Origin: Phycisphaerae bacterium RAS2 | Lineage (GTDB): Bacteria > Planctomycetota > Phycisphaerae > UBA1845 > UTPLA1 | Direction: 5' to 3' | NCBI GenBank assembly: GCA_007753915.1 | Contig: CP036352.1 | Coordinates: 124,001-188,000 of the forward strand | Length of the DNA stretch: 64,000 nt | In this document: in pieces, positions 50,055-62,638 of the stretch | Layout: each line of letters starts with the position of its first letter | Position numbering within the stretch: position 1 is the first letter of the stretch | Notes under the pieces: model-generated | Databases searched by the model: none | The model's input: the letters and a program-made list of their open reading frames with translations, nothing else | Told to the model about the DNA's origin: nothing | Position numbers and translations under genes: made by a program

Positions 50055-51686
50055 TCATTCGCCGAGCGAGCCGCGGGCTTCAGCCCGCGCGGTGTCGGGC
50101 GATGGAAAGATCGCCGCGGTCGCGGTCGGCTGCACGACGCGATACAAGTCGCGCGAGCGATTCTCGGCGAAACCGATCAACCCGCCGGCGTACAGCGTGC
50201 CGGTCAGCACAATGCCCAGCGCACACGCCACCACGGCGAGCCGGCCCAGCGCCGGCGTGCGAATCGGCGGCTCATCGCTCGACACGAAATACATCGCGTA
50301 CGCGACACGAGCGTAGTAGTAGAGACTGATCAGCGTGTTGAACACGGCAACGAAGATCAGCCAGTACAGCTTCGCTTCGAACAGCGCCACGAGCAGGTAA
50401 TACTTGGCGACGAACCCACCGAACGGCGGCAGGCCCACGAGGCTGAACAGGCAGATCGTCATCACCGCGCCCAGCAGCGGATTGCGCCAACCCAGCCCGG
50501 CGAATCCGTCGAGCGTCTCCTTGCCCGTGGCCCAGCCGACCATCGCGACAATGCCGAACGCGCCGATGTTCATCAGCACGTACACCAGCGTGTACGCGAC
50601 GATCGCGCTGAACGCCGGATGCACCGCGCCCACTTCATTCAGCGTCGGTCGCCACAAGATCGCCACCGCCATCAGCATGTAGCCCGCGTGCGCGATGGAA
50701 CTGAACGCGAGCAGCCGCTTGAGATTGGTCTGCCAGAAGGCCGAGAAGTTGCCGACCGTGCAGGTGACGGCGGCCATGATCGCAACGGCCTGCGAGACGG
50801 TCACGAGCACCGCGGGCGACGCCGTGGACGACGTCAACACCGAGATGATGCGGAGCATCAGGCCCAGCCCCGCGGCCTTGCTTGCGACGCTCAACCACGT
50901 GGTGATCTCGATCGACGCGCCTTCGAATACGTCCGGGCACCAGAAGTGAAACGGCACGGCCGAGACCTTGAAGGCGACGCCGGCGAGGAACGCGATGATC
51001 GCCGTGCCCATCAGCACGCTCGCGCCGCCGGTCGATATCTCCGCGCCGATCTGTGCGAGGTCCAGCGTGTGGTAGTGGCCGTACAGCAGCGACGCGCCGT
51101 AGATCATCATGGCGCTGGTCACCGCGCCGAAGAGAACGTATTTCATCGATGCTTCGGCCGAGAGGCGGTTTTTCTTTCGGAAGCCGGCCAGCCCGTACGA
51201 CGGCAGTGAAGCCGATTCGACGGCCAGCACGATCATCAGCAGGTTCGTCGTGCAGACCATGAGCGCCATGCCGAAGGCGCTGCCCAGCAGCAAGGTGAAG
51301 TATTCCGGTGCGTCGTCGGCGGAGGACATCGTGCCGGGCTGGGCCGACCACTGTCCGATCCACCACATGCCGATGATGAGCAGCAGAAACGCGCTGGACA
51401 GGAAGATGAAGAAGTAGCTGAACTGATCGACGACGAGCATCGGCCGCGCCGCGTCGGGTGACATGCCTGCGAAGCTGCCGCTGGACGTGAACCCGCCGAG
51501 ACAGAGGTACGCCGTCACGCCCGCTCCGATGGCCGCGGTGATCGCGCTGACGCGCCCGTTCCGTCCGAAGACCAGCGCCGCCAGCAGCACGGCGACTATG
51601 GCCCCGGCGAGGCTCCACAGCGGAGCCAGCGCCTTAAGCTGCTCCGCATCGGGCAGCCAGAATGGTGTTGCCGCAAGAATCTGCAC
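50055..51686 (-). CDS. nuoN: NADH-quinone oxidoreductase subunit N
   Basis: NuoN is one of the three antiporter-like proton-pumping subunits of complex I. The 543-residue protein has about 14 membrane helices, with the conserved VESASLPSYGLAGF motif, FKVSAVPFHFWCPDVFEGAS and the AYTLVYVLMNIGAFGIVAMVG stretch. The last nine or so residues before the stop (TARAEARGS) are encoded by a copy of palindromic repeat family B (50068-50092), so the natural C-terminus was probably extended by the repeat. It is the last gene of the nuo cluster, 12 nt after nuoM. Confidence 0.96.
   Translation of the reverse strand: MQILAATPFWLPDAEQLKALAPLWSLAGAIVAVLLAALVFGRNGRVSAITAAIGAGVTAYLCLGGFTSSGSFAGMSPDAARPMLVVDQFSYFFIFLSSAFLLLIIGMWWIGQWSAQPGTMSSADDAPEYFTLLLGSAFGMALMVCTTNLLMIVLAVESASLPSYGLAGFRKKNRLSAEASMKYVLFGAVTSAMMIYGASLLYGHYHTLDLAQIGAEISTGGASVLMGTAIIAFLAGVAFKVSAVPFHFWCPDVFEGASIEITTWLSVASKAAGLGLMLRIISVLTSSTASPAVLVTVSQAVAIMAAVTCTVGNFSAFWQTNLKRLLAFSSIAHAGYMLMAVAILWRPTLNEVGAVHPAFSAIVAYTLVYVLMNIGAFGIVAMVGWATGKETLDGFAGLGWRNPLLGAVMTICLFSLVGLPPFGGFVAKYYLLVALFEAKLYWLIFVAVFNTLISLYYYARVAYAMYFVSSDEPPIRTPALGRLAVVACALGIVLTGTLYAGGLIGFAENRSRDLYRVVQPTATAAIFPSPDTARAEARGSLGE
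50068..50092. repeat. 25-bp palindromic repeat (family B), copy 2, at the end of nuoN
   Basis: Identical to 19330-19354. It encodes part of the NuoN C-terminus when read on the minus strand. Confidence 0.8.
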
Positions 51687-51698
51687 GCGGAACCGCTC

Positions 51699-53255
51699 CT
51701 AGTTAAACAGGCCGACGACCTTGTCGATCGTGCCGTTCATGAGGTCAAAGGTGTACTTCGGCAGCACGCCGAGGAAAATCGCCAGCACGGCCATCGGGAA
51801 GAGAATCGCCGTCTCCCGCGCGTCGGCATCGGGGAACGACGCGTACTCCTCGCGCTTCTTGCCGAGATAGACGCGCTGAATCATCCAGAGGATGTAGCCG
51901 GCGGTCAGCACGACGCCGAAGGCCGCGGCGAACGCCATGGGCTTGGCCCAGGTGAACGGCGCGCTGTAAGTGCCGAGCAGAACCCAGATTTCACCGATGA
52001 AGCCGCACAACGACGGCAGCCCCAGCGATGCAAAGAAGCCCAGCGTCGCCAGCGAACCGTAGCGCGGCATGGCCAGCCACAAGCCGCCGAAGCGGTTGAG
52101 GTCGCGGTGGTGCGCCCGGTCATAAATGATTCCGACGAGGAAGAAGCACATCGGGCTGCTGATGCCGTGGGCCAGCATCTGGAACATCGCGCCCTGGAAA
52201 CCCGTGTTCGTCATGATGGCGCAGCCCAGCACGACGTAGCCCATGTGGCTGATCGAGCTGTAAGCGACGAGCCGCTTGAAGTCGGTCTGTGCGAGGCAGC
52301 AGAACGCGCCGTACAGAATGTTGATCAAACCCAATGAGGCGACGTACCACGCCAGTTCCTTGCCCGCCTCGGGGAAGATCGGGTAGCACACGCGGAGGAA
52401 ACCGTACGAGCCGAGCTTCAGCAGAATGCCGGCCAAGATCATCGAGATCGGCGTCGGCGCTTCGACGTGGGCATCGGGCAGCCACGTATGGAAGGGGAAC
52501 AGCGGCACCTTGATCATGAACCCGATGAACAGCATGACGAACATCGCCTGGCCGAAGTTCCAGCCGAGGAAGGTCGTGTTCTCGCCGTTGAAGAGTTCGT
52601 GAATGGCGGGCTTGGTGGCGTACTCAATGAGGTTGAAGGTGCCTGCGCCGCCGTTGGCGTCGGCGCTCATGAAGTACATCGCCAGCAACGCGACGAGCAT
52701 CAGCACCGAGCCGGCCAGCGTGTACAGGAAGAACTTGATCGCGGCGTATTCCTTCCGCGGCCCGCCCCAGACACCGATCAGGAAGTACATGGGCAGCAGC
52801 ATGACTTCCCAGAAGATGTAGAACAGGAAGAAGTCAATCGCGCCGAACGTTCCCAACACGCCCGTTTCAAGCAACAAGAACAGTGCGAAATAGCCCTTGG
52901 GGCTGCGATTGTTGTGCCAGTGGTCGAAGTTCCAACCGGCCCAGCAGGCCAGCCAGGTGATGAGCGTCGTGAGGATGACCAGCGGGAAGGAGAGGCCGTC
53001 GAGGCCGACGTGCCAGTTGATCTCAAATCCGCCGACCTTGATCCATTCGACTTGGTGCTCGAATTGCAGCGCGCCATACGCGCCGTTGAAGGCATCGCCC
53101 GAAAGAAACGGCCCGAACAGGCTGCACGACAGCAGGAACACCGCGAAGGTGACGACCCACGCGACCACGCGCGCCTGCCGCGCCGGGGCGATCAGCACCA
53201 GCCCGGCGCCGATCAACGGAAGAAAGATCAGCCACGTCAACAGATGACTCGTCAC
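51699..53255 (-). CDS. nuoM: NADH-quinone oxidoreductase subunit M
   Basis: NuoM (518 residues) is an antiporter-like membrane subunit. It has the conserved EVMLLPMYFLIGVWGG segment with the key Glu, the FMIKVPLFPFHTWLPDAHVEAPTPISMILAGILLKLGSYG motif with proton-path Lys, and SISHMGYVVLGCAIMTN. The start MTSHLLTWLIFLPLIGAG is typical. NuoL ends 24 nt upstream. Confidence 0.97.
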   Translation of the reverse strand: MTSHLLTWLIFLPLIGAGLVLIAPARQARVVAWVVTFAVFLLSCSLFGPFLSGDAFNGAYGALQFEHQVEWIKVGGFEINWHVGLDGLSFPLVILTTLITWLACWAGWNFDHWHNNRSPKGYFALFLLLETGVLGTFGAIDFFLFYIFWEVMLLPMYFLIGVWGGPRKEYAAIKFFLYTLAGSVLMLVALLAMYFMSADANGGAGTFNLIEYATKPAIHELFNGENTTFLGWNFGQAMFVMLFIGFMIKVPLFPFHTWLPDAHVEAPTPISMILAGILLKLGSYGFLRVCYPIFPEAGKELAWYVASLGLINILYGAFCCLAQTDFKRLVAYSSISHMGYVVLGCAIMTNTGFQGAMFQMLAHGISSPMCFFLVGIIYDRAHHRDLNRFGGLWLAMPRYGSLATLGFFASLGLPSLCGFIGEIWVLLGTYSAPFTWAKPMAFAAAFGVVLTAGYILWMIQRVYLGKKREEYASFPDADARETAILFPMAVLAIFLGVLPKYTFDLMNGTIDKVVGLFN

Positions 53256-53279: not shown

Positions 53280-55823
53280 CTACTGCGCCGACGCCAGCGA
53301 AAGCGTCTTGCGCAGGAACCACTGACACCCAGACGACAACGGCTCGTAATACAACACCACCAGCAGCGCGACGGCCGCCGTCCCCGCCGCCAGCACCACG
53401 TACGAACGAATCCGGCCCGACTGCGGCCGGCGAATGTGCATGCCGATGTCCAGCATCGCCTCGGCCAATTCGTTGGCGATGCGATCGAGCAGGCCCCAGT
53501 CGGTCTTCTTCACGGGCATGTCGAGCTGTCGACCCATGAACACGCCGAGCAGGCGCGTCACGCCGGCGGAGAGATTCACCAGCCCGTCGACGATGTACTT
53601 GTCGATCGCGCTGCAGACCTGTCCGAAGACCACCGTGCCGCCGACCAGCACGGCGTCGTACACATGATCGAAGTAAAGTTTGTTATCCAGTGCCTTGTGA
53701 ATCGCGCTCAATGGCCAGATGCGCTTCAATCCGGCGGCGATCTCCAGCCCGCGCAGGTACAGAAACGCCGCCAGACCCATGCCGATCAGCCACGACCAGC
53801 CGACAATCTTTGCCAGGGCCGCATGCGGATCGCGCCCCGGCATGTGGGTCAGCGTCAGCATCGAGCCGCCCGCGTGATGCGCCTCGCCGTCGACCGCGAC
53901 GATCATCGAGCTGTCGGTCGCGATGGCGGCCGCCTCGGCCAGCATCGGGCGGAAGGTGCCGAGCATGTTGTAGCTGCAGAAGACTGTCCCGACGGCCAGC
54001 ACGGCCAGCGGAATCCACATCATCGGCGACTCGTGCGCGTGATCGTACACATGATGATCGCGCGGCTTGCCGCAGAACGTCAGCCACCAGACACGCATCA
54101 TGTAGAACGGCGTAATGTAGGCGATGATGATCGGCAGCCAGAACATCCACGTCGGCAGATTGGGCAGACGCTGGGCAATGGCGAGCTTCGCCGGCGTGCC
54201 GGTGGCGTGATCGCCGTGAGCGTCGGCACCGTGGCCGGTCTCCGTGTGGCCGGCAGATTGCGCACCATGCTGGCCGGTTTCGTCGGTAAGCGGCAAGGCT
54301 TGAGACGTGAGGCTTGCGGCTTGAGAAAGGGGACTGGAAGCCGGTCCAACGGAGTGCGCGCGAGAATAAGCGGCAGCTACTTCGCCATTCGCTATTCTTA
54401 ATTCTTCATTCGGCGACGCCGCTGCATGTTCCCCTGCGTCATCCGCCGCCGCGTCGGTCTTGCCCCATGCCGGGAAATTAAACGCCCGTTCGTACGCAAC
54501 GGCGAGAATCTCGTCCTTGCTGAAGTAGCCGCCGAGGCCGAGCTTGAAGTGATCCGGCCCGAAGGCGACGCCAGGCAATCCGAAACCGGCAATCGCCAGC
54601 ACGCCGATGAAGAACGTCCAGCAGGTGACGGGCATCTTCTTCCGCAGGCCGCCCATCTTGGTGATGTCCTGCTCGTGGTGACAGCCTTCGATGACCTGAC
54701 CGCTTCCGAGGAAGAGCATGGCCTTGAAGAAGGCATGCGTCATCAGATGAAACAGCGCCGCCACCCATGCACCGACGCCCAGGCCGAAGATCATGTAGCC
54801 CAGCTGGCTAAGCGTGGAGTACGCCAGCACCTTCTTGATGTCCGTCTGCACGATGGCGATCAGCGCGGTGATGGTCAGCGTGATGCAGCCGATCACGGCG
54901 ATGAACATCTGCGCCTCGGGCGTGAGCAATCGGAACACGCGGGCGACAAGATACACACCGGCCGCGACCATGGTCGCAGCGTGGATCAGCGCGCTCACCG
55001 GCGTCGGGCCGGCCATGGCATCGGGCAGCCACACATGCAGCGGGAACTGGGCGCTCTTGCCCATCGCGCCGCAGAAGAGGCCGATGCCCATGATCGTGGC
55101 GAGGCTCAAGCCCCACAGGTTGAATGACTCGGCAAAGATGCCGGACTTTGCGTGAAACTGCTGGGCGATGGAGGCAGCGGCCGCGTCAATGTCGAACGTG
55201 CCGGTGTAGATGACCACCAGCGCGAGGCCGAGGATGAAGCCGAAGTCGCCGACGCGGTTGGTAATGAACGCCTTCATGGCGGCGTTTGAGGCGTACTTCC
55301 GCTCGAAGTAGAAGCCGATGAGCAGATACGAGCAGAGGCCGACGAGTTCCCAGAAGATGAACAGGAACAGCAGGCTGCTGCTGATGACCAGACCGAGCAT
55401 CGAGAAGCAGAAGAGCGAAAGGTACGCGAAGAAGCGGTGATACTTGCTGACGCCGTCGACCTCGTCGCTGTGGCCGGCCATGTAGCCGATGCTGAAAAAA
55501 TGAATCCAGAAGGCGATGAAGGTGACCATGAAGTACATGATCACGGTGAGGCTGTCGAGCTTGACGCCGACGGTGATAGGGATGTCGCCGATGCGGCCCC
55601 AGTCGTAGCGGTAGGCGCTTTCGGCGAGGGTCGCGCGTGTGGCAGCGTCGACGCCGAGCCAGCCGGCGAGGACGTAGATGCCCATGCCGGCCGAGAAGCC
55701 GATGGCGGCGAGCGCCACCCACGACGCTTTCGGCTTGCCCAGCCGCGGCCCCCAGAACGCGAGGATGCCGAAGCTGATCAGCGGGATGACGACGCCCAGA
55801 GCCAGTGCTGTCTGATATTGCAT
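53280..55823 (-). CDS. nuoL: NADH-quinone oxidoreductase subunit L with a loop insertion
   Basis: NuoL is the distal antiporter-like subunit with the long lateral helix. Core motifs are present: FIFWELVGLCSYLLIGFYFER, SAQFPLHVWLPDAMAGPTPVSALIHAATMVAAGVYL and ALIAIVQTDIKKVLAYSTLSQLGYM. The protein has 847 residues, well above the usual 610-680. Most of the excess is a low-complexity segment of about 105 residues (about 448-555) between the AYERAFNFP and WMFWLPIIIAYITPFYMMRVWW regions. It includes NEELRIANGEVAAAY and a His/Gly-rich run, and reads like spacer DNA that has become coding. The lateral-helix C-terminal part is retained. Confidence 0.95.
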   Translation of the reverse strand: MQYQTALALGVVIPLISFGILAFWGPRLGKPKASWVALAAIGFSAGMGIYVLAGWLGVDAATRATLAESAYRYDWGRIGDIPITVGVKLDSLTVIMYFMVTFIAFWIHFFSIGYMAGHSDEVDGVSKYHRFFAYLSLFCFSMLGLVISSSLLFLFIFWELVGLCSYLLIGFYFERKYASNAAMKAFITNRVGDFGFILGLALVVIYTGTFDIDAAAASIAQQFHAKSGIFAESFNLWGLSLATIMGIGLFCGAMGKSAQFPLHVWLPDAMAGPTPVSALIHAATMVAAGVYLVARVFRLLTPEAQMFIAVIGCITLTITALIAIVQTDIKKVLAYSTLSQLGYMIFGLGVGAWVAALFHLMTHAFFKAMLFLGSGQVIEGCHHEQDITKMGGLRKKMPVTCWTFFIGVLAIAGFGLPGVAFGPDHFKLGLGGYFSKDEILAVAYERAFNFPAWGKTDAAADDAGEHAAASPNEELRIANGEVAAAYSRAHSVGPASSPLSQAASLTSQALPLTDETGQHGAQSAGHTETGHGADAHGDHATGTPAKLAIAQRLPNLPTWMFWLPIIIAYITPFYMMRVWWLTFCGKPRDHHVYDHAHESPMMWIPLAVLAVGTVFCSYNMLGTFRPMLAEAAAIATDSSMIVAVDGEAHHAGGSMLTLTHMPGRDPHAALAKIVGWSWLIGMGLAAFLYLRGLEIAAGLKRIWPLSAIHKALDNKLYFDHVYDAVLVGGTVVFGQVCSAIDKYIVDGLVNLSAGVTRLLGVFMGRQLDMPVKKTDWGLLDRIANELAEAMLDIGMHIRRPQSGRIRSYVVLAAGTAAVALLVVLYYEPLSSGCQWFLRKTLSLASAQ

Positions 55824-55930: not shown

Positions 55931-56242
55931 TCAATGCTTCAGCTCGTCGCCGCGATCGACGTCGATCGTGGCCAGGCGGTTGTAGAAGTTCATGAAGATG
56001 GCGATGCCGATCGCCGCCTCCGCCGCCGCCAGCAGGATGACAAACACAGCGAAGATGTGCCCGTCGCCCGCGCCGGTCTGATATTTCGAAAACGCAACGA
56101 AGTTGATGTTCGCCGCGTTGAGCACCAGCTCCACACCGATGAGAATCCCGATGGCGTTGCGCTTCGTGGTCATGCACAGCACGCCCAGCGAGAAGATCAA
56201 CGCCGAGAGGACGAGATAGTGATTCAGTCCGATCGCCAGCAT
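55931..56242 (-). CDS. nuoK: NADH-quinone oxidoreductase subunit K
   Basis: The 103-residue protein with three membrane helices matches NuoK: LNHYLVLSALIFSLGVLCMTT, IGILIGVELVLNAANINFVAF with the conserved Glu of the proton path, and GHIFAVFVILLAAAEAAIGIAIFMNFYN with the second Glu. It begins one nt after the nuoJ stop. Confidence 0.97.
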   Translation of the reverse strand: MLAIGLNHYLVLSALIFSLGVLCMTTKRNAIGILIGVELVLNAANINFVAFSKYQTGAGDGHIFAVFVILLAAAEAAIGIAIFMNFYNRLATIDVDRGDELKH

Positions 56243-56734
56243 TTACTTCTCCGGCCTCGCCATGTACGCCGCGCCGATCATCACCACCAGCAGCAGCACG
56301 CTCGCCGCCTCAAATGGCACGAGGTAATCCGTCAGCAACATGCGGCCCACGTCGGCCACGTGCGGCGACGCGGTCAACTCGCCGCTCGGCTTCGACCAGT
56401 CGGCTCGGTTCATCAGCGTGATCAAGCCCGTTGCCAGCAGCGCCGCGACGAAGACCGACCCGACCACCTGCCCGCGCGTCGGCGTGAGTTTCGCGTACGG
56501 GCTCTTGCTGGTCAGCATGACCCCGAACACGATCAGAATCAGCGTGCCGCCGGCGTACACAATCAACTGAATCGCCGCCAGCAGATTCGCATTCAACAGG
56601 AAATACAAACCCGCCACGCCGCCCAGTGTGCCCAGCAGGCACACGGCCGTGCGCACGATGTTCTTCGACAAGGCCGCGCCGACGGCGCTGCCGAGTGAGA
56701 CGCCTGCGAACAAGTAGAAGGCCAGTGTTTCCAT
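56243..56734 (-). CDS. nuoJ: NADH-quinone oxidoreductase subunit J
   Basis: NuoJ (163 residues) is a small membrane subunit at the hinge of the complex I membrane arm. It has five helices, with the conserved GLYFLLNANLLAAIQLIVYAGGTLILIVFGVML segment, including the Tyr-Ala-Gly-Gly motif. It follows nuoH after a 31-nt spacer that holds the palindrome GATCGC-CCGC-GCGATC. Confidence 0.96.
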   Translation of the reverse strand: METLAFYLFAGVSLGSAVGAALSKNIVRTAVCLLGTLGGVAGLYFLLNANLLAAIQLIVYAGGTLILIVFGVMLTSKSPYAKLTPTRGQVVGSVFVAALLATGLITLMNRADWSKPSGELTASPHVADVGRMLLTDYLVPFEAASVLLLVVMIGAAYMARPEK

Positions 56735-56765: not shown

Positions 56766-58619
56766 CTATGACCCCGGCAGGTGGTCGATCACCAGGCTGC
56801 CCGGCAGTCGCTTGCGATTCACCCAGCCGTACCACGCGATGCACAGCATCGACAGCATGACGGCAACGCCAATTGCCACGAGCGTCCAATGCGACGCCTT
56901 GTCCACCGCCAGCATCCACGGCGCCTTGAGGTGATGCACGCCGAGGATCCAAAGCGTGTTGCCCAGCAGCACGATCATTGTCAGCGGCAACAGCACCTGC
57001 ACACAGGCGTACAACACCTGGTCAATTCGAATGCGCGGCAGCGTCCACCGAATCCACAACTGCACGTAGTACAGGAACGCCGACTTGAGGATGAACAGGA
57101 TCGGCCCCTCCTTCAGGAACATGCCGTTGATCACCCGCGCGGGAATGTCCAGATACCACTCGCCGCCGGTCGGCAGCGCCCAGCTCGCGGGAAACGGCGA
57201 CTTCCACCCGCCGAGGAACAGGATCACCGCGAGGCCCGACACGACAAACATCGCCGCGTATTCACCGAAGAAGAACAACGACCAGCGGAAGCCCGAATAC
57301 TCGGTGTGGAAACCCGCCACCAGTTCCGACTCGCTCTCGGGCAGGTCGAACGGCGCCCGCTTGCAGCTTGCCAGCGAGCCGATGTAGTAGGTGAAGAAGG
57401 CAACGAACGCGAACGGATTGGCGAAGATGAACCAAGTCCAGAAGCCGCCCGCTTGTTGATCGGCGATGGCTGTCAGTTGCAGCGTGCCGGCGAGCATAAC
57501 GGGAATCAGCAGGCTCATGCCCATCGGGATTTCGTACGAGACCATCTGACAGGCCTCGCGCATCGCGCCGTACACGCTCCATTTGTTGTTGCTGGCCCAG
57601 CCAGCGAGGATCACGCCGACGACTTCGATCCCCAGCATCGCGAGGATGAACAGCAGCGCCACGTCCAGATCGCGAAACACCCACGACCCGGCGAAAGGCA
57701 GCGCCACGAACGCGCAAACCGCCGGCACGAACGCGAGGTGCACCGCCATGCGGAACAACAGCGTGTCGCCCTCGGGCGGGATTGTGTCTTCCTTGAACAG
57801 CAGCTTGATGCCGTCTGCGGGGGATTGCGCCCAGCCGTGCCAGCCGCCGACACGCATCGGGCCGAGTCGGCTTTGAATGCGGCCGGCGATCTTCCGCTCC
57901 CACCAGATGCCGAAAACCGGCACGATGTTGATGAAGCCGATGATCGCGCTCAAGGCGATTACGTCGCGCACGAGGTCAAACTGCAACGGCCACAGGGCGT
58001 ATGCGAGGATGACCGGAAACTGCGGAATCGTTGCCGACAGTGCATCGTAAATCTCGCGCACCGTGAGCTGCGCGGTTGTGATCCAAAGCGGCGTGGTGAA
58101 CTCGTTGCTCCCCGCGGCCCCGGCCAGCATTCCTTTGATGAGATCGAACACAATCGAATGCAGCCAGACGACAAGGCAGGCCCCGACCACGCCACCGCAG
58201 AAGATGGTGAAGGCGACGTACGGCCCCTTGAGAATTCGCCCGATGATGCGGTACGACGCGATGGCCAGCGATCCGCCGCACAGGGCAAAGAACCCGACAA
58301 TCGGCCCGATGGCCAGCAGCAATGCGGGGAGTATCTTCCAGTCGGTGATCTGGTTCGGCTGGCCAAGACCGAAGCCGGCGTACGATCCCACGCCGATCAC
58401 CAGAGACGCGATGCCCGCAGCGCCAAGCAGACCGATGGCCTTGCGGCGATAGCCGGAAAGGGTTGCAGGGCTTTTTTCCGCCCACGGTATCGTGTAGGTG
58501 CTCAAACCCGGCTCTCCCACTGCCGACGGCCGCCCGCGTGCGGCCCCAATCGCGCCAAGAACAAGGTTTATAGCAGGAAAAAGAGCGGTTGCAAGCCGGG
58601 AAGGGACTGCCGACTTCAT
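56766..58619 (-). CDS. nuoH: NADH-quinone oxidoreductase subunit H with a membrane N-terminal extension
   Basis: NuoH forms the quinone-entry channel of complex I. The recognisable core begins near residue 225 (FINIVPVFGIWWERKIAGRIQSRLGPMRVG). It continues with QSPADGIKLLFKEDTIPPEGD, MREACQMVSYEIPMGMSLL and RAPFDLPESESELVAGFHTEYSGFRWSLFFFGEYAAM, all standard. The protein has 617 residues, against about 330-430 in most bacteria. The extra N-terminal 205 residues carry about three to four membrane helices (KAIGLLGAAGIASLVIGVG, ILPALLLAIGPIVGFFALC, YVAFTIFCGGVVGACLVVWL) and a soluble segment. Confidence 0.95.
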   Translation of the reverse strand: MKSAVPSRLATALFPAINLVLGAIGAARGRPSAVGEPGLSTYTIPWAEKSPATLSGYRRKAIGLLGAAGIASLVIGVGSYAGFGLGQPNQITDWKILPALLLAIGPIVGFFALCGGSLAIASYRIIGRILKGPYVAFTIFCGGVVGACLVVWLHSIVFDLIKGMLAGAAGSNEFTTPLWITTAQLTVREIYDALSATIPQFPVILAYALWPLQFDLVRDVIALSAIIGFINIVPVFGIWWERKIAGRIQSRLGPMRVGGWHGWAQSPADGIKLLFKEDTIPPEGDTLLFRMAVHLAFVPAVCAFVALPFAGSWVFRDLDVALLFILAMLGIEVVGVILAGWASNNKWSVYGAMREACQMVSYEIPMGMSLLIPVMLAGTLQLTAIADQQAGGFWTWFIFANPFAFVAFFTYYIGSLASCKRAPFDLPESESELVAGFHTEYSGFRWSLFFFGEYAAMFVVSGLAVILFLGGWKSPFPASWALPTGGEWYLDIPARVINGMFLKEGPILFILKSAFLYYVQLWIRWTLPRIRIDQVLYACVQVLLPLTMIVLLGNTLWILGVHHLKAPWMLAVDKASHWTLVAIGVAVMLSMLCIAWYGWVNRKRLPGSLVIDHLPGS

Positions 58620-58676: not shown

Positions 58677-59867
58677 CTACCGATCCACCTCGCCCATGAC
58701 CACGTCGATGCTGCCGATGATGGCCGCGACGTCGGCGAGCAGGCAGTTCGTGCAGGCCTGGCTGGTGATTGAGAGATTGCAGAAGCTCGGGCCGCGGGCC
58801 TTCACCCGTGCGGGGATGGCGCTGCCGTTGCCCTGCACGAAGAAGCCCAGTTGCCCGCGCGGGTTCTCAAGTTCGTAATAGATTTCATCCGCCGGCAGTT
58901 TGACCGTCTTGCCCTTCTTGTCCAGCACGTCGCCCTCGGTGCCGCGCAGCTTCTCAAACGCCTGCCGCAGGATGCGCACCGATTGCTTCATCTCAAGGAT
59001 GCGTACGAAGTAACGGTCCCAGCAGTCGCCGATCTGGCCCTTGGCCCCCTCGCCGATCGGCACGTCGAATTCGTACTCGTCGTAGCCGAGGTCCTTCTGA
59101 ACCTTGCGAAGATCCCATCGCACGCCGCTGGCACGCAGCGGCGGCCCCGTCAGCCCGAAAGCCAGTGCATCGGCCGCGCTGATGACACCGACATTCGCCG
59201 TGCGCTTGACGAAAATGTGGTTGTAGCTAAGCAGATTATTGTATTCGTCGATCTTCGGCTCGAAGTAATCGAGGAACTCCTCGGTGATGTCGATGAACCG
59301 GTCGGGCAGGTCCTGCGTGACGCCGCCGATGGTGATGTAGCTGTAGGTGAGCCGCGCACCGCAGGCCGACTCGAACAGGTCGAGGATCATTTCGCGTTCG
59401 CGGAAGGCGTACAGAAACGGCGTGAACGCGCCGATGTCCAGCCCATAGGTGCCCATCGACACCAGGTGCGACGCGATGCGGTTCAACTCGGCGAAGATGA
59501 CGCGGATGATCTGCGCCCGCTTGCTGATCTCCATGCCGGCCAGCTTTTCCACCGCGAGGGCAAACGCGAGGTTGTCGTTCATGCCCGCGAGATAGTCCAT
59601 GCGATCGGTGTACGGGATGTACTGATACGGCGCGACATTCTCGCCGATCTTCTCGGCGCAGCGATGGAGGTATCCAATGTGCGGCACGGCCTCCAGCACC
59701 ATCTCGCCGTCGGTGCGAAGCACGACGCGCAAGACGCCGTGCGTCGCCGGATGCTGCGGGCCCATGTTGACCAGCATTTCCTCGGTCTGAAAATCATTCG
59801 ACACGATCTGATCGCCCGTCAGATCGACGTTGATGTCCGGCCGTGCTTCGAGAATCATGTCCGCCAT
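58677..59867 (-). CDS. nuoD: NADH-quinone oxidoreductase subunit D
   Basis: NuoD (396 residues) is the 49-kDa subunit that lines the quinone-binding site with NuoB. Motifs include NMGPQHPATHGVLRVVLRTDGE with the quinone-site His, IGYLHRCAEKIGE, the GALTP-like GAFTPFLYAFREREMI segment, the GPPLRASGVRWDLRKVQ stretch and the C-terminal CNLSITSQACTNCLLADVAAIIGSIDVVMGEVDR. It is related to NiFe-hydrogenase large subunits but lacks their metal Cys pairs. A spacer of about 90 nt with two palindromes separates it from nuoC. Confidence 0.97.
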   Translation of the reverse strand: MADMILEARPDINVDLTGDQIVSNDFQTEEMLVNMGPQHPATHGVLRVVLRTDGEMVLEAVPHIGYLHRCAEKIGENVAPYQYIPYTDRMDYLAGMNDNLAFALAVEKLAGMEISKRAQIIRVIFAELNRIASHLVSMGTYGLDIGAFTPFLYAFREREMILDLFESACGARLTYSYITIGGVTQDLPDRFIDITEEFLDYFEPKIDEYNNLLSYNHIFVKRTANVGVISAADALAFGLTGPPLRASGVRWDLRKVQKDLGYDEYEFDVPIGEGAKGQIGDCWDRYFVRILEMKQSVRILRQAFEKLRGTEGDVLDKKGKTVKLPADEIYYELENPRGQLGFFVQGNGSAIPARVKARGPSFCNLSITSQACTNCLLADVAAIIGSIDVVMGEVDR

Positions 59868-59956: not shown

Positions 59957-60520
59957 CTAATGCACCGGCCGGGTCTGGCCATACTCTGTAACCGCCGGGA
60001 TGCCGTGATACTCCATCGGGAAGTTGTAATCCTTGCGCAGCGGGAAGCCCTCCCAATCGTCGGGGCAGAGAATGCGCCGCGGGTGCGGGCCGTCGCGGCC
60101 TTCCACGCTGTCAGGATGATTGTCAAACACGATGCCCATCAGGTCATACGCCTCGCGCTCGTGCCAGTCGGCCGCGGGCCAGATGTCTGCCACGCTGGGA
60201 ATGTGCGGATTGGCTCGCGGCACTTTCACTTTCACGGTGAATGCGTGCGGTCGCTTCCACGGTTCGCGCCCGTGGGTCTGGCCTGCGAGGGCGTCGAGGT
60301 CATACGTCGCGGCGAGCTGTTCGTCCTCAAGGTAATCCTGGCTGGTGATGCATCGCAGCATGTTGAAGCCCATGCGCGGGTCATCGCGCAGAAAACGGGC
60401 GATGTCATGCCACGCGGCGGCGTCCACTTCGACATGCGGCAGCGCGCCGGCGAAGTTCGCCCCGCGAATCTTCTCGCCGAAACGCTCCTTGAGAACGGCT
60501 CCGATCTCTTCGGGGGTCAT
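59957..60520 (-). CDS. nuoC: NADH-quinone oxidoreductase subunit C
   Basis: NuoC (30-kDa subunit) is a peripheral-arm protein. From the ATG at 60520 it has 187 residues. It has the family stretch [48 protein letters not shown] (the family signature WxEREAYD(L/M)xG) and [19 protein letters not shown] at the end. An ATG at 60538 would add six residues, but the GGGAAG Shine-Dalgarno lies between the two, which favours 60520. It is separate from NuoD, not fused. Confidence 0.96.
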
Positions 60521-60586
60521 TGGTATCTTCCCATTCAAAGAGCCGATCGCGCGTGCGATCGAATCCGATCAGTTCCGATTGACCTG

Positions 60587-60689: not shown

Positions 60690-61223
60690 TCACGATGCTT
60701 CGACCAAACGGCTCGACCTGTCCTTCGCCTTCAGCCACGGGTCCTTGGCGATCGATGTGTTGCGAATCTTGTCCTGCAGGCGCATCAGGCCTTCCAGCAG
60801 CGCTTCGGGCCGCGGCGGGCAGCCCGGCACATACACATCCACCGGCACGACGAGGTCCACGCCCTTCACCACGTGGTAGCCGTGCTTGAAGTACGGGCCG
60901 CCGCCGATCGTGCATGCGCCCATCGCAATCACATACTTCGGCTCGGGCATCTGGTTATACAAACGTCGAACACGGCTGGCCATCTTGAACGTCACCGTGC
61001 CGGCCACGATCATCAGGTCGGCCTGCCGCGGCGTCGCGCGAAACGCGCCGGCCCCGAAGCGGTCGATGTCGAACCGGCTCGCGCCGACCGCCATCATCTC
61101 GATCGCGCAGCACGCCAGGCCGAACGTCATCGGCCACACGCTGCTGCTGCGGCCCCAGTTGATCGCCCAATCCAGCGACGTGACGATCATGCCCTCTTCG
61201 AATCTGTTTTCGATCCAGCTCAT
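60690..61223 (-). CDS. nuoB: NADH-quinone oxidoreductase subunit B
   Basis: NuoB (PSST; 177 residues) carries cluster N2, the last iron-sulfur cluster before quinone. The cluster Cys residues lie in [12 protein letters not shown] (adjacent CC), [14 protein letters not shown] and [19 protein letters not shown]. The C-terminal 30 residues are charged and variable. It starts 13 nt after nuoA. Confidence 0.97.
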
Positions 61224-61235
61224 GAATTCACCTGT

Positions 61236-61676
61236 CTAACTCCACTGCCGCGCCGCACGGTACAGCTCGTCACGCGGTGCGGTTTGCGGCCGCTCCTTCA
61301 TTCCCGTCGCCCGCACCCAGTCGAGGTAGCCGAATCGCCACAGGTACAGGAAGCCCACGACAATGACGCCGAAGAAGAAGAGCATGTCCCACAAGGCCGC
61401 GATGCCCGCTTCCTTGTAGACCACGGCCCACGGATAAAACAAAGCGATCTCAATGTCGAAAATCAGGAACACCAACGCGACGACATAAAATCGCAGGTCG
61501 AATTGCACCCAACTGCTGCCGATGGCTGGCTCGCCGCATTCGTACGGCGCACCCTTCTCCGGGTGCGGCAGACTCGTACGCACCAGCCGACCGATCGTCA
61601 GGCCGCCGAGCGAGATCGCCAGCCCGCCCACCACGAACAACAGCAGGCCGATGACAACGTCAATTCCATCCGCCAT
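61236..61676 (-). CDS. nuoA: NADH-quinone oxidoreductase subunit A
   Basis: NuoA (146 residues from the ATG at 61676) has three membrane helices and the conserved segment PYECGEPAIGSSWVQFDLRFYVVALVFLIFDIEIALFYPWAVV, with the Cys of the quinone-site loop and the acidic FDIE motif. An in-frame upstream ATG at 61715 would add 13 residues without a membrane start. Upstream is the 200-nt spacer with the 41-bp repeat. Confidence 0.97.
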   Translation of the reverse strand: MADGIDVVIGLLLFVVGGLAISLGGLTIGRLVRTSLPHPEKGAPYECGEPAIGSSWVQFDLRFYVVALVFLIFDIEIALFYPWAVVYKEAGIAALWDMLFFFGVIVVGFLYLWRFGYLDWVRATGMKERPQTAPRDELYRAARQWS

Positions 61677-61766
61677 GTATACCGAACTCCTCAAAGAGCC
61701 GATCGCACAAGTCACAGATCCGCCGTGGCGGGCGATCGGTTACGGTCGGTTTCGTTCAACCTTCCA

Positions 61767-61873: not shown

Positions 61874-62467
61874 TCATTCCTTCTTCGCGCTGGACGGCTG
61901 CAACGCTTTGAGCATCTCCTCGCGTACGGGCCTCGCCCGCTCTTCCCATCGCGCTTTCTTGGCCGCCGCCCACTCGGGCATGTTGTCCTTCTGCATCCAG
62001 TACGGTTCGGGCGTTTGCTTGCCGGTCTTGGCCAGTTCGGTGAACTCGACGCACATGTCCTCGCGCGTGTAAGCGCTCAAATCGTGGTTGTCGCCCATGT
62101 GGATGCAATCAGTGGGGCACGGGTCGCAGCATAGCGCGCAGAACATGCACTTGCTGTAATCGATGGCATAGCGCTCCAGCGCCCCGCCGATCGCCACGCC
62201 CGTCGCCTTGTCGATCTTGCGCGGCCCGCTCTTCTCAATGTAGATGCAGTCCACCGGGCAGGCCTTGGCGCACTGGTCGCAGGCGATGCACTTTTCCGCC
62301 TCGAACCAGTGGAAGCCGCGGTAGCGCGGTTGCAGGGCCGGGGCCATGTCGGGGTATTGCAGCGTGATGGTCCGCGCGAAGTTGTACTTCAGGGTGATGC
62401 GCATGCCGATGGCGATGGTCCGAACCGTGTCGAAGATGTTCCGGAAGTACTGCCGCACCGTCGCCAT
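61874..62467 (-). CDS. nuoI: NADH-quinone oxidoreductase subunit I
   Basis: NuoI (TYKY; 197 residues from the ATG at 62467) carries two [4Fe-4S] clusters, N6a and N6b. The two ferredoxin motifs are CIACDQCAKACPVDC and CMFCALCCDPCPTDC. A 40-residue N-terminal segment precedes the YRGFHWFEAEKCI strand. An open frame extends to 62620, but those residues are not conserved-looking. It is the first gene of the cluster in transcription order, ahead of nuoA, whereas it usually lies after nuoH. Confidence 0.96.
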   Translation of the reverse strand: MATVRQYFRNIFDTVRTIAIGMRITLKYNFARTITLQYPDMAPALQPRYRGFHWFEAEKCIACDQCAKACPVDCIYIEKSGPRKIDKATGVAIGGALERYAIDYSKCMFCALCCDPCPTDCIHMGDNHDLSAYTREDMCVEFTELAKTGKQTPEPYWMQKDNMPEWAAAKKARWEERARPVREEMLKALQPSSAKKE

Positions 62468-62638
62468 GCCTGTCCCTCGATCGCGCCGTTCAAGTCCTTC
62501 GGCGCTCCGTTTCACCGGCATTCCCATGCCGACGACCCTGCCGAACGGAGTATAGCCGAGCCACACGAGGGCACCAACAGGCGGGGTCGCTGCGCTGGTC
62601 CGACTCCTTCCTCGCGACACGCATCCACCTGTTTAATG

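Follow-up and report, generated by a model that had tools for sequence, protein, structure and literature searches.

NuoH holds the quinone entrance of complex I, and the passage of quinone through its narrow bottleneck is an open question in the field. The window analysed here, a stretch of 64,000 nucleotides that forms part of a single-contig genome of 4.32 Mb, contains a nuoH frame with a long hydrophobic part ahead of the conserved core, which raises the question of whether this part belongs to the protein and what it might do there.

The nuoH gene, its cluster and a second complex I

The NuoH ORF lies on the minus strand (56766-58619) as one open frame and would encode 617 amino acids if translated from ATG 58619. 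Its only Pfam match was NADHdh at residues 224-552 (353.9 bits; PF00146 cut-off, 27), in agreement with the preliminary description, which had placed the conserved core near residue 225, and the NCBIfam model for NuoH, NF004741, was also passed (321.7 against a cut-off of 305). The minus-strand cluster has the order I-A-B-C-D-H-J-K-L-M-N (Table 1); nuoA-D and nuoH-N are present and nuoE, nuoF and nuoG are absent from it, the gene content of an 11-subunit complex I. The earlier mention of missing nuoEFG holds for this cluster but not for the genome, whose second cluster contains NuoF, NuoG, H, I, J, K, L and M (names from sequence reading) and has a short NuoH. The one strong NuoF match of the genome falls in that second cluster, and a weak second match (66 bits) lies elsewhere and may be RnfC. 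Because the second cluster has NuoF/NuoG and a short NuoH, two distinct complexes are encoded in the cell, judged from its gene content, the extension being part of the one that lacks the NADH module. NuoEFG may be shared between the two.

Table 1. Coordinates of nuoH, its parts and the surrounding Nuo genes in the window
Feature	Position	Strand	Basis and remarks
nuoH, corrected CDS	56766..58505	-	TTG start 58505, 579 aa, stop 56766-56768; conserved N-terminus, Shine-Dalgarno, Pfam NADHdh, NF004741
Over-called 38 codons, more likely nuoH 5' leader	58506..58619	-	In-frame stop and frame-shifting indel in same-genus G001
Shine-Dalgarno core GGAG	58514..58517	-	8 nt before TTG 58505
N-terminal extension domain, ~170 aa	57996..58505	-	Absent from canonical NuoH; alignments A1/A2 and models; without Pfam match
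TM helix e1 (predicted), model residues 13-44	58374..58469	-	AlphaFold2 block pLDDT 84-97, extension alone 92-98; absent in 1-TM relatives
TM helix e2 (predicted), residues 55-83	58257..58343	-	AlphaFold2 models (whole protein; extension alone)
TM helix e3 (predicted), residues 97-129	58119..58217	-	Models; kept also in relatives with shorter extension
P-side acidic/helical stretch before TM1 (predicted), residues 130-170	57996..58118	-	Motif near LTxxEI
NuoH TM1, residues 177-210	57876..57977	-	AlphaFold2 model; ~210-248 in 617-aa numbering
Extra C-terminal TM helix (predicted), residues 529-562	56820..56921	-	AlphaFold2 model; beyond Pfam NADHdh
nuoI	61874..62620	-	ORF list; no NCBIfam match reached its cut-off; start of the ORF probably placed too far upstream
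nuoA	61236..61715	-	ORF list; best NCBIfam matches below cut-off
nuoB	60690..61223	-	ORF list and NCBIfam
nuoC	59957..60538	-	Name from sequence reading and cluster position; homologs at same place in related loci
nuoD	58677..59867	-	Directly upstream of nuoH; ORF list and NCBIfam
nuoJ	56243..56734	-	ORF list; homologs directly follow long nuoH in 53/53 testable related loci
nuoK	55931..56242	-	ORF list, related loci
nuoL	53280..55823	-	847 aa, hydrophilic insert
nuoM	51699..53255	-	ORF list, related loci
nuoN	50055..51686	-	ORF list, related loci

The same arrangement was seen in related loci, with nuoJ downstream of nuoH wherever this could be tested (Table 1). Upstream of nuoH the closest Nuo gene was NuoD in 43 of 51 loci, the other eight having no upstream Nuo gene in the available stretch, and tblastn gave a NuoF/NuoG match in none of the 59 long-form loci. 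The absence of EFG does not always go together with an extension, however: in L135 nuoD adjoins nuoH with no EFG between them, and NuoH has no extension. Related short NuoH genes often lie outside any Nuo cluster (L124, L134, and L122-L131), those of L124 and L134 standing among unrelated genes whose Pfam families include glycine cleavage P-protein, HDOD/GGDEF and a PLP enzyme. The nuoL insert of the window (~54167-54470, minus strand) is hydrophilic, His-rich and about 100 aa long; parts of its DNA recur at other places in the genome as short matches (32 bases at 88%, 28 bases at 89%), and it is perhaps an in-frame repeat element.

Translation start and maintenance of the extension

We compared the start region with the 30 fetched long-type loci, own included, leaving out L012, which is cut by a contig end, from the start analysis and from alignment A1. 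An N-terminus of the type (S/T/A)Q-x-(T/S)-x-PW, or a variant of it, was common to 29/29 long relatives with an assignable start, and in the window it begins at TTG 58505, residue 39 of the 617-aa frame. The chosen positions were start codons in 28/29 cases (13 TTG, 12 GTG, 3 ATG); in the remaining case, L030, the reference began one codon early and the start was set by hand. A GGAG, GAGG or AGGA core lay 4-12 nt upstream of the chosen start in 24/29 loci, compared to 14/322 other in-frame start-like codons in the same stretch, and was missing in L018, L022, L028, L029 and L030. Across the nuoH clade (L003-L032), 25 of 28 identified start codons were TTG or GTG, mostly behind a GGAG-type site. 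In the same-genus G001 the frame above the conserved start is closed by TAA, and the aligned DNA has a frame-shifting indel there. ATG 58619 was rejected in view of the conserved TTG start together with this stop and frameshift in the nearest relative, and residues 1-38 of the 617-aa ORF are most likely not protein. Given the conserved TTG start with its Shine-Dalgarno core and the upstream stop and frameshift in G001, NuoH is a protein of 579 aa with an extension of ~170 aa before TM1. The preliminary description had counted about 205 extra residues; that many do precede the core in the 617-aa frame, but the first 38 were over-called.

The ~95 bp upstream of the nuoH start (58506-58600, minus strand) are nearly identical between G000 and G001, and the DNA further up is unalignable; in G001, nuoD ends ~1 kb from the nuoH start. 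This stretch, which contains TTGCAA (58594-58589) and, after 16 nt, TATAAA (58572-58567), is possibly the nuoH promoter or leader. Rule-based detection upstream of nuoH, with the TTGCAA/TATAAA stretch included, gave no promoter.

Translation might instead start near TM1, with the upstream frame separate or non-coding. In L004, L025, L107 and L099 a four-base Shine-Dalgarno core also precedes a TTG that lies 47 residues ahead of the core anchor, as such a start would need, but the window lacks this site, TTG 58505 being its only pre-TM1 start with a four-base core, and none of the 30 loci has a stop between extension and core. The conserved upstream start with its frequent Shine-Dalgarno core, and a dN/dS of 0.155 across the extension between G000 and G001, also stand against a start near TM1, which we consider extremely improbable. 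As evidence against the extension, the preliminary description had named an internal start near residue 200 with relatives of the short form only; the long form proved to be conserved, and the internal start is unsupported.

In the G000-G001 comparison, dN/dS of TM1 and the core was 0.031, and between G014 and G006 the values were 0.09 for the extension and 0.026 for the core. Mean pairwise identity was 28.6% over positions 1-95, 33.8% over 96-130, 22.6% over 131-168, 53.2% over 169-200 and 73.8% over 201-507, the P-side stretch before TM1 (131-168) being the least conserved part. Alignment A2 held 22 of the 30 long-type loci, without the 1-TM forms and L012. These results show that the extension is a maintained yet fast-changing protein region under purifying selection.

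Distribution of the extended NuoH

The alignment of NuoH across relatives that the preliminary description had proposed placed the extension in one order of Phycisphaerae. A long-type NuoH match at E < 1e-130 was found in 45 of 61 genomes searched (own and 60 further), including all 17 of the same family, and the named relatives are Phycisphaerae and other Planctomycetota MAGs. The extension profile, run against 198 genomes of the class at E <= 0.01, matched in 33, of which 31 belong to the same order and two, elsewhere, are weak and unverified. At the phylum level, 84 of 244 genomes had a NuoH match at E <= 1e-100, and the extension was covered from its start only in the own genome; by hydropathy it was found in none of the 29 other loci fetched from this search (no segment was scored for L054 and L056, and exact copies were entered once). 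One contig titled Alphaproteobacteria, L119, carries a long NuoH nested inside the planctomycete (Phycisphaerae) clade and is probably misbinned.

In a tree of 108 NuoH cores, all verified extensions fell in one clade of 65 rows (SH-aLRT 99), composed of 34 long forms, 30 short forms and L118, a near-copy of L114 labelled 'none' because a contig end cuts it at its start. Labels were taken from a hydropathy window, and the 'short' label of L133, outside the clade, reflects one weak segment; L112, L110, L126, L128 and L141 (no anchor), L032, L115, L135, L049 and L062 (short) and exact copies were left out of the tree. Within the clade the 3-TM and shorter forms interchange, with 13 changes for each label. 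The part kept by the aligned clade members is e3 with the stretch to TM1, and e1-e2 are missing in many relatives. The verified extension-bearing NuoH proteins thus fall in one order of Phycisphaerae and in a single clade.

Among matches at E < 1e-6 in the 198 class genomes no stand-alone copy of the domain was found: all came from genomes that have a long-type NuoH, and their frames, 512-644 aa, had the length to be expected of this form. Weak matches were also given by G002:C3, G406 and G440. One more, G012:C44 at E 6e-6, and weaker ones in G002, G010 and G427 fall in a family of TPR membrane proteins. Such proteins, ~610-740 aa long, occur in the same order (L176, L177, L178, L179, L180), the own copy lying at C1:2996214-2996873. 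The N-terminal anchor of this family and the first 41 aligned columns of the extension gave an hhalign probability of 65.5%, a weak resemblance that is insufficient to call homology.

Predicted structure and possible role of the extension

AlphaFold2 was run on 29 aligned relatives (mean pLDDT 72.7; numbering of the 579-aa protein). The model contained the three extension helices listed in Table 1, then short helices at 149-159 and 165-175 leading into TM1, and the extension modelled alone gave the same helices (mean pLDDT 88.5). Of the three to four hydrophobic segments, soluble stretch and unbroken frame described earlier, three predicted TM helices, a P-side stretch and the open frame were recovered. 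The predicted topology is N-in, with e1 running out, e2 back in and e3 out, and with the P-side helical stretch leading into TM1. Charges agreed with this topology: over 29 sequences the mean net charge was +1.83 for the N-terminus, +2.14 for the e2-e3 loop, -2.00 for the e3-TM1 loop and +2.38 for the TM1-TM2 loop; the N-terminus and the e2-e3 loop were net positive in 24/29 and 27/29 sequences, respectively, whereas K+R exceeded D+E in the e3-TM1 loop in only 1/29. This loop, the longest soluble part, is placed on the P side because it is net acidic, and on the N side the extension exposes only its short N-terminus and the e2-e3 loop, which is short too; each is net positive.

The core has the fold of its family, with Z scores of 29-34 to NuoH/NdhA/ND1 chains over ~300-350 residues. 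It matched E. coli NuoH (7z7v_H) with Z 31.2 and rmsd 3.1 over 317 aligned residues (model 168-526), but differs from canonical NuoH/Nqo8/ND1 in the ~170-residue N-terminal extension with its three predicted TM helices and in one C-terminal TM helix, which Thermus Nqo8 (4hea_H) seems to have too, the alignment reaching model residue 556. The highest structural Z was obtained for cyanobacterial NdhA (6khi_A; Z 33.7, rmsd 3.2, 349 aligned, model 118-524), although the Z scores of the top rows differ by only 1-3. NdhA also gave the highest PDB sequence score and likewise belongs to an enzyme without an NADH module, but at 372 aa in the PDB record it is too short for the extension. A long N-terminal part is present in 8iuf_N1, which we take to be Euglena ND1 (670 aa in the PDB; our profile aligns to residues 243-619), but no similarity of that part to the NuoH extension was found.

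Searches with the extension assigned it to no family or fold. Pfam gave no match to the extension of the window and only scattered matches to 22 extensions (best E 0.011, no family in common), a PDB sequence profile search gave no match at E <= 10, and none of 26 Foldseek matches against the PDB reached E <= 0.001, NdhL not being among those listed. The VIA-align rows for the extension were helical hairpins or elongated helices. Duplication of another Nuo subunit as the origin of the extension was rejected, hhalign probabilities against NuoA, B, C, I, J, K, L, M and N being 0.1-0.7%. Within the limited coverage of our literature search, we found no description of bacterial NuoH with its N-terminus extended by a membrane part, none of the NuoH subunit in Planctomycetes complex I, and none of a TM domain fused to NuoH throughout a clade in complexes lacking the NADH module. 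Both NuoH and complexes of 11 subunits are already known.

The quinone entrance of known complex I is described as framed by TM1, AH1 and TM6 of NuoH (PMC8799541). Since the extension is covalently fused to TM1, we infer that it would sit at or near this entrance unless the P-side stretch lets it swing away. We propose with a probability of about one half that the extension is a fused accessory cap or stabiliser at the heel, beside TM1 of the quinone entrance. A lineage-specific membrane domain would have been fused once to the NuoH N-terminus in the ancestor of this clade, would pack against the membrane-arm heel beside TM1 as a built-in supernumerary subunit, and would stabilise TM1 and the arm junction and influence the shape of the route by which lipid and quinone gain access. 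The extra subunit-like domain next to the quinone channel suggested by the preliminary description fits a domain covalently attached to TM1. The extension might then work like NdhL of the ferredoxin-dependent cyanobacterial NDH-1, with its 11 core subunits, while being apparently unrelated to it in sequence. NdhL is described as a two-helix accessory subunit that caps lipids at the entrance of the plastoquinone cavity next to NdhA (PMC7021789; also PMC6992706), and its deletion almost abolishes NDH-1 activity (PMC7021789). NdhL adds TM helices next to the NuoH homolog where quinone enters (PMC7021789), and the extension would do so at the corresponding place, but NdhL is a separate protein with two TM helices, whereas the extension is fused to NuoH in one open frame. 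No PDB chain matched the extension in the profile search (E <= 10), and Foldseek gave no significant match. Euglena has an added single-helix subunit, NDUEG6, described as adjoining the quinone tunnel entrance (PMC10884005).

Several observations argue against a cap. No accessory subunit resembles the extension in sequence, or significantly in fold; e1-e2 are not essential in general, since they are missing in many relatives; eight of 51 loci have no upstream Nuo gene in the available stretch; and a precise gate would not be expected to be as poorly conserved as the P-side stretch. An assembly or membrane-insertion anchor, in which the positive N-terminus and e1-e3 serve insertion and early NuoH assembly and have no catalytic role, would suit the fast divergence of the extension, in which e1-e2 were repeatedly lost or gained; the common features are only e3 and the charged N-terminus, and the resemblance of the first 41 columns to the N-terminal anchor of the unrelated TPR family points the same way. 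We nevertheless regard an anchor as unlikely, because the extension is kept in every verified clade member under purifying selection, while the cell's other complex has a short NuoH that manages without it.

The association with the NuoEFG-less cluster in the loci read, next to a second complex with NuoF/NuoG and a short NuoH, could also point to a surface on which another membrane complex, or an electron donor in the membrane, docks laterally, as a supercomplex interface. This seems quite unlikely: the extension has little mass on the N side, the side on which soluble donors would bind, an unsystematic look at the cluster revealed no additional conserved gene, and L135 lacks the extension despite its similar nuoD-nuoH arrangement. 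Docking of a non-NADH electron-input module on the cytoplasmic side, as the preliminary description had suggested, would agree with the absence of NuoEFG from the cluster, but the predicted topology places the main soluble part, net acidic, on the P side, away from electron donors, and therefore argues against such docking, which we judge very improbable. A bolder version of the proposed role is at present doubtful. It sees in the extension a new module dedicated to the quinone entrance or to a supercomplex, with a single origin in a complex I that lacks the NADH module; if this is true, the extension would tune the choice of quinone pool or membrane partner by a second complex I that works beside an ordinary 14-subunit-type complex in one cell.

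Another complex I without NuoEFG has been described, whose direct electron donor is given as unknown (PMC11238625); the main text of that source does not contain the term NuoH and mentions no extension of it. The lineage studied here carries an 11-subunit complex, a type of unknown electron donor, alongside a complex with NuoF/NuoG. The 3-helix and 1-helix versions of NuoH in close relatives form a natural series for testing what adjoins TM1, and the fused domain may represent a single-gene counterpart of the accessory subunits added in cyanobacteria (NdhL) and mitochondria.
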